Assembly: GCA_960531495.1 (NCBI GenBank)
Contig: OY482861.1
Span: forward strand, 4,329,001-4,393,000
DNA length: 64,000 nt
From: Zeus faber
Lineage: Eukaryota; Chordata; Actinopteri; Zeiformes; Zeidae
Direction of reading: 5' to 3'
Under the pieces are notes generated by a model that saw only the letters and a list, made by a program, of their open reading frames with translations, was not told the origin of the DNA and searched no databases. Within the stretch, counting starts at the first letter, position 1, and the number at the start of each line of letters is the position of its first letter. The position numbers and the translations under genes are program-made. Of the stretch, positions 7,773-8,112 are shown piece by piece.

Positions 7773-8112
7773 GAAGTGACTTTGGGATGGGCAGTTCAGC
7801 TGCCATGTAAATGTTGTAGACTGAACAATGGTGGAATTATTCCCCCTAAATGGAAAAATGTGCATGGTAAAGACATAGTGCTAACAGGACCTGATGATAG
7901 CAGTGGGCCTTGCAGTCTACAAAAGTTTATGTTGCAGAAAGAGAGGAGCCGGGTTAAAGTTCAAGATGACTGTTCTCTTGTCATAGGAAATGTCATGTGG
8001 GAAGATCAAGGAGAATGTACATGCGCATATTTAGATTCAGAGTTTAAACATTTCCCAAGGCAAAATTATTGGGAATCAGGATATAGAACTCGGAAAAGAA
8101 TGCTTGTAGTGA
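7773..8112 (+). other. Immunoglobulin V-like domain inside A1 env
   Basis: The sequence shows the V-set signature in order: a B-strand cysteine in 'VQLPCK', a C-strand 'PPKWKN' with the core tryptophan, an Arg in 'KERSRVKVQDD', the E-strand 'CSLVIGNV' and the F-strand 'EDQGECTC' (D-x-G-x-C-x-C, with Tyr replaced by Cys). A G-strand-like 'RKRMLVVKG' ends it. The A2 copy (28,782-29,141) preserves the same landmarks, including the Tyr at the F-strand. I infer capture of a host Ig-superfamily domain; the host source is unknown. Confidence 0.75.

Follow-up and report, generated by a model that had tools for sequence, protein, structure and literature searches.

An immunoglobulin V-set domain in the env of a teleost endogenous retrovirus, and its possible role as an attachment head

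Retroviral Envs are usually described as a surface subunit (SU) followed by a transmembrane subunit (TM). We analyzed a stretch of 64,000 nucleotides from Zeus faber (contig OY482861.1, positions 4,329,001 to 4,393,000), hereafter the window, which hosts an old provirus, A1, composed of a gag-like open reading frame (ORF), then pol, then env. At approximately 7764-8115 of the forward strand, the env of this teleost endogenous retrovirus (ERV) almost certainly encodes an immunoglobulin (Ig) domain of the V-set. The whole is best explained by an ERV Env that bears a host-derived V-set domain as attachment head on a stalk, a reading to which we assign a probability of roughly 0.55.

A single ORF of A1 (7269-8132) holds LPC, the core W, DDCSLVIGNV and DQGECTC. 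The initial annotation had described such V-set landmarks ahead of SU, and all of them are present in one open stretch; its limits for the domain, 7773-8112, were correct within a few residues. We built an Ig profile from 19 relatives, excluding A1, and ran it at E <= 10 on the 1,637 stop-to-stop pieces of at least 25 residues from the six frames of the window. It matched nothing but A1 (E 1.1e-43) and a second copy, A2, the latter in three pieces (3.6e-16, 6.7e-15 and 3.8e-8), and the same four were returned by a profile remade from script-cut rows (1.7e-39, 6e-13, 1.1e-14 and 6.7e-8). Eleven columns are invariant in all 20 aligned rows including A1, among them four Cys, one W, two D and two G, and this invariance extends to the marks of the V-set, namely the Cys of the B and F strands, the core Trp and the D-x-G before the last Cys. 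The Cys pair of the first strand is detectable in 19 of the 24 Ig-matching proteins that reach SU; the other five begin within the domain or differ there.

The predicted fold returned the same indication. An AlphaFold2 model of the A1 domain, obtained with a 25-row alignment, reached a pLDDT of 84.4 and a pTM of 0.74, and superseded a single-sequence fold that was useless (pLDDT 28.6). When the model was compared to solved structures with Foldseek, 407 PDB matches were found at E <= 0.001, with CRTAM and TIM-2 first and domains of sodium-channel beta, antibody V, TIM-3 and SIRP close behind. Among solved structures, the closest are Ig domains of the V type, and the absence of a receptor from these structure lists was given no weight. 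The nearest solved sequences include JAML, ICOS ligand, VSIG4 and TIM-3. The Pfam V-set family (PF07686) is matched by 22 of 25 alignment rows at E <= 0.01, relative P0004 passes its cut-off (30.4 versus 26 bits), and 12 of the 74 proteins retrieved with an Env profile bear a precomputed V-set label. A1 alone gave E 0.0016 against PF07686, with 16 and 19 bits in two runs, and its best match in a PDB sequence search was VSIG4 at E 0.2. The check by profile and fold that had been proposed for the domain thus indicated an Ig on both counts, while A1 taken alone stays under the Pfam cut-off.

The domain recurs inside the env frame of related proteins, all of which are predictions seen as protein rather than DNA, and some of the gene models may join exons. 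Searching with the whole ORF of pol tail and Ig, we retrieved 34 proteins among 245 candidates, three with the Ig by profile (P0004, P0027 and P0031) and 31 matching the pol tail. The SU/TM piece 9053-9904 retrieved 52 relatives out of 288, and a profile of seven Envs retrieved 74 out of 3,909. Overall, the Ig profile matches 29 of the 124 collected proteins: 19 had been used to build it and ten had not (P0004, P0027, P0053, P0090, P0091, P0101, P0102, P0103, P0110 and P0115). When only proteins that include the start of SU, preceded by 150 residues or more, are considered, 24 out of 27 match the Ig, five of them in part (P0090, P0091, P0101, P0102 and P0103). As for the remaining three, P0094 begins just after the Ig, P0118 has an N-terminus that matches nothing clear, and P0121 is weighed below.

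The Ig-matching proteins come from 11 named species, all of them teleosts: Scomber scombrus, Nibea albiflora, Takifugu rubripes, Astyanax mexicanus, Colossoma macropomum, Cyclopterus lumpus, Hippoglossus hippoglossus, Coregonus suidteri, Siganus canaliculatus, Syngnathus typhle and Sebastes umbrosus. TM is spanned only by the proteins of Scomber, Nibea, Takifugu and Astyanax; the proteins whose single frame runs from the Ig, or a part of it, across SU and through TM are P0087, P0091, P0098 and P0102. Of these four species, only Scomber (819 residues) and Nibea (832 residues) also show the signal peptide, so that a single frame of their predicted proteins leads from it over Ig, Thr-rich stalk and SU to TM. 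The complete one-frame order seen among the relatives is signal peptide, Ig, Thr-rich stalk, dibasic site, SU, furin-type site, TM. The predicted relatives P0087 and P0098 have, within a single frame, all that a class I Env comprises: a signal peptide, SU, a basic cleavage site and TM. Because these predicted proteins carry the Ig with SU, and TM where reached, in one frame, the Ig was a component of the virus, in a lineage that is represented in the 11 named fishes; the relatives likewise point to a teleost host. The earlier proposals that the domain was part of the ancestral virus, and that the order is Ig, Thr-rich stalk, SU and TM, are supported by this comparison, and a placement of the segment outside the env frame, which would have spoken against them, was not encountered among the predicted proteins. 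The TM piece of the window gave three pattern matches in viral contigs, none of which was confirmed. The weak Pfam score of A1 alone might be taken as a sign of a chance read, or of an unrelated host exon lying beside the provirus; the specificity of the Ig profile for A1 and A2 within the window, and the sharing of one frame by Ig and SU in the relatives, make this hardly conceivable.

The position of the Ig coincides with the end of pol. In relatives such as P0001, P0003 and P0005, the pol tail ends in a common motif, and env begins in another frame that overlaps pol. In our own reading of A1, this motif and the pol stop map to 7766-7768, at the start of the Ig, and therefore the Ig sits just where the constraint on pol ends. 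The end of A1 pol (7269-7763, forward strand), composed of the C-terminal part of integrase (MLVIN_C E 0.016, below the cut-off) and an acidic tail, overlaps the start of env. The open frame shared by this tail and the Ig is a product of A1's own decay. We rejected the Ig as a part of pol, since the pol tails of the relatives stop at this point. A hydrophobic stretch, probably a signal peptide, opens env in the eight relatives whose N-terminus is long (P0087, P0096, P0098, P0104, P0111, P0121, P0122 and P0123). Its counterpart in A1 lies at 7507-7572 (forward strand), inside the pol tail in a non-pol frame, and is the most hydrophobic run of 15 residues in ORF 7252-7746; here as in the relatives, signal peptides were called from hydropathy alone rather than with a dedicated predictor.

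The env of A1 is degenerate, with all its parts present and broken. After the Ig, on the same strand, come a Thr/Ser-rich stalk (8116-8704), which carries stops and frame changes and ends at a conserved dibasic site (QKR/E), an SU of about 265 codons with one internal stop (8705-9499), and a TM with stops (9500-10166), which includes the QGGLC segment and the membrane anchor region and whose end motif agrees by eye with that of the relatives. The stalks of 22 relatives measure 34-174 residues with 15-32% Ser+Thr, the shortest of which may be cuts of the gene models, while SU and TM measure 257-269 and 216-222 residues in 13 proteins. The mean pairwise identity is 42% for the Ig (10 rows) and 24%, 58% and 77% for stalk, SU and TM (13 rows each). 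Among these predicted proteins, such a gradient is what a variable head at the outer end of a loose tether would be expected to give. In 37 of 40 proteins, a dibasic [KR]R pair occurs within the last eight residues ahead of SU. The exceptions, P0069, P0081 and P0106, are not matched by the Ig profile and carry, slightly further up, a full R-x-K-R that none of the 37 has there. Because the full site before SU is confined to these three proteins, the Ig part may stay attached to the spike.

Gamma-type Envs are defined by C-x-x-C in SU and CX6CC in TM. None of 13 Ig-Envs has either motif: in TM, 11 have C-x9-C, P0103 has C-x9-CC and P0089 lacks the second Cys. The plain C-x9-C is shared by the Ig-less P0069, P0106, P0108 and P0056. 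On these predicted sequences, the lineage is therefore not a typical gamma-type Env, and the change in Cys motif is not tied to the Ig. P0109 and P0114, which lie outside the 29-row tree described below, have C-x-x-C in SU and C-x9-CC in TM. The SU-TM of the lineage (TM 9500-9907 in A1) perhaps lacks the isomerising disulfide of gamma-type Envs.

A2 holds its Ig at 28787-29140 of the forward strand, followed by a remnant of stalk and SU at 29141-30487; TM is missing and the region of the 3' long terminal repeat (LTR) comes next. A1 and A2 share 81% identity over 432 alignment columns. According to the initial annotation, A2 keeps the same landmarks as A1; this holds for three out of four (LPC, W and DDCSLVIGNV), while the last is broken by a small insertion, and a stop lies within the domain. 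Differences between the two copies are evenly spread over the codon positions (20, 23 and 22 of 119, 118 and 119 sites). This evenness is neutral decay and fits two dead copies; it is the relatives that speak for constraint.

The homology between A1 and A2 begins at the Ig. Directly 5' of A2, on the forward strand, we observed two exon-like pieces: 28289-28438 resembles the last FN3 domain of gp130/IL6ST (E 0.0008 in a PDB sequence search; Pfam fn3 E 0.0014, below the cut-off), and 28558-28728 has no clear match. The env fragment of A2 may therefore adjoin the remnant of a cytokine-receptor gene. That the gp130-like exons were part of the captured unit was dropped as unsupported, given where the homology starts. 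A dispersed repeat, with pieces 77-83% alike, lies directly before these exons (25989-28131) and again about 27 kb further on (53899-55188). A Thr-rich lead-in precedes the Ig in A2 (28753-28800) and in P0113, P0111, P0123, P0124, P0088 and P0089; in some rows, such as P0113 and P0111, it looks by eye like a partial repeat of the first strands of the Ig.

To place the Ig within the lineage, we relied on a 29-row tree of SU/TM. In this tree, which is unrooted, with a bootstrap that has not settled and with one of the five Ig-less rows on a long branch, the five Ig-less Envs stand apart from the other 24 at 100/100. Because the Ig-less relatives form a separate branch, capture from a host is likely: the V-set was very probably acquired by an ancestor from a gene of its host, and became fixed where pol and env meet. 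The Ig label is not clustered on the tree (9 changes, with 173 of 500 shuffles as low), and nine of the 24 main-clade rows scored as lacking it end short of the Ig position and do not count as losses. An unrooted tree cannot separate gain from loss, and the Ig might instead be an ancient part of this Env that was lost in the Ig-less relatives. We consider this improbable, as P0109, which belongs to the classical coat-protein Pfam family and has an apparently complete N-terminus, and P0069 have no Ig, and V-sets are characteristic of proteins on the surface of animal cells.

The tree of the Ig itself separates two types at 100/99, and the three rows of the smaller one, type B, come together in 0% of the SU-TM bootstrap trees. 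The approximately unbiased test does not reject holding them together on the SU-TM tree (p 0.211). This comparison left out P0102, the longest Ig branch, with which the Ig split is 100/100, and the two groups were named from the Ig tree after the SU-TM tree had also been seen. Swapping of the Ig between Env backbones is possible on these predicted sequences. That a teleost retrovirus lineage uses the captured host V-set as an exchangeable spike head, with two deeply split Ig types traded between backbones, we put forward as a speculative extension.

In the reading that we prefer, the N-terminal Ig would form the outer, membrane-distal end of the spike on a flexible and probably O-glycosylated tether, and would act as an attachment head that binds a surface protein or a glycan of the host, leaving activation and fusion to a short SU and a conserved TM. 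For the attachment role taken by itself, we see the odds as even. Several observations weigh against this reading. Ig-less relatives with related SU/TM exist, which indicates that the Ig is not essential to such Envs, and P0121 has a signal peptide and a stalk and no Ig, through either loss or an error of the gene model. Neither a host donor gene for the Ig nor any codon-position bias between A1 and A2 was found, and cleavage at the dibasic QKR/E site is still conceivable, which would free the Ig and favor a decoy.

The latter is the main rival of the attachment head. The Ig and its stalk would be an immune decoy or modulator that mimics a V-set receptor of the host and is either shed after cleavage at the dibasic site or kept to shield the spike. 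The basic pair before SU in 37 of 40 proteins, with a full furin-type site in the other three, is compatible with shedding, and immune receptors are found among the nearest solved sequences (JAML, ICOS ligand, VSIG4 and TIM-3) and folds (TIM-2, TIM-3 and SIRP). We regard this as a minority possibility. It is rather unlikely that the Ig is a passive spacer or a relic, kept since it folds harmlessly. Its absence from P0121 and from the Ig-less sister rows and the even spread of differences between A1 and A2 would agree with a dispensable domain, but none of the 20 aligned rows deviates at four Cys or at W, D and G, while the adjoining stalk has fallen to 24% mean identity. P0102, which lies outside these 20 rows, has a degenerate first half of the Ig.

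No description of a retroviral Env with an Ig domain was found in open-licence PMC papers, and an earlier one may exist in the subscription literature. The nearest case is the crocodilian CrocERV31, likewise a retrovirus in a vertebrate genome with host-derived Ig domains; it reportedly captured the whole three-Ig ORF of nectin3 and lost env in exchange, whereas here one V-set is fused in the env frame and SU and TM are kept (PMC4299795). Consistently with this difference, SU, and TM where it is reached, follow the Ig in frame rather than being replaced by a host ORF. Fish ERVs that are teleost and epsilon-like also carry host-type genes, encoding CNPase or macro domains, but these are other domains and are reported as additional ORFs (Basta 2009, via PMC4977317). 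With gamma-type Envs, outlined in part in PMC9967133, Ig-Envs share a fusion protein of SU and TM with an isu-like segment. A further link is that P0109 and P0112 carry the coat-protein Pfam family PF00429, and the differences are the N-terminal Ig and stalk together with the Cys motifs lacking in 13 of 13 Ig-Envs. The zebrafish Env38 is a teleost ERV Env with a furin site and an isu segment; it differs in being 428 residues long and composed of signal peptide, SU and TM, with no Ig domain mentioned in the accessible part of its report (PMC10072453).

Outside viruses, the closest architecture is that of the TIM family. TIM receptors consist of an IgV domain and a mucin stalk, which resembles the V-set and Thr-rich stalk of the 22 rows, and both TIM-2 and TIM-3 rank near the top of the matches by fold. 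Unlike Ig-Envs, they have no viral SU and TM, and their sequence similarity is no more than that of V-sets in general. A host-type Ig at the N-terminus of Env, present at least in part in proteins of the 11 named fishes, would mean that a virus turned a module of immune or adhesion receptors into part of its own entry protein, and the way viruses gain new attachment domains becomes testable. The lineage also explains database entries so far named 'uncharacterized', 'Ig-like domain-containing protein' or 'Endogenous retrovirus group 3 member 1 Env polyprotein'.

Upstream of env, the gag-like ORF of A1 starts at about 385, with Gag_MA reaching only E 0.064. Pol extends to about 7763 (RVT_1 E 1.6e-26 for 2814-4277). 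A repeat that looks by eye like a DNA transposon, and that has an inverted relative at 38974-40144, interrupts it at about 5808-7162. A third element of the A1/A2 family is probable near the end of the window, which cuts it. Its LTR (60520-60887) is like the 3' LTR of A1 (11169-11509) and less closely like that of A2 (30771-31005), and a leader and gag start that match A1 follow at 62805-64000 (forward strand); that LTR and gag belong together is our inference. The forward strand also carries a further retrovirus-like element with a broken pol at 16655-19310 (RVT_1 E 4.1e-10 for 16655-17026), an uninterrupted ORF of 958 codons at 31904-34780, by eye the endonuclease/reverse transcriptase of an element of the long interspersed (LINE) type and possibly a recent insertion, and an open frame of 831 codons at 41675-44170, by eye a reverse-transcriptase-like element.
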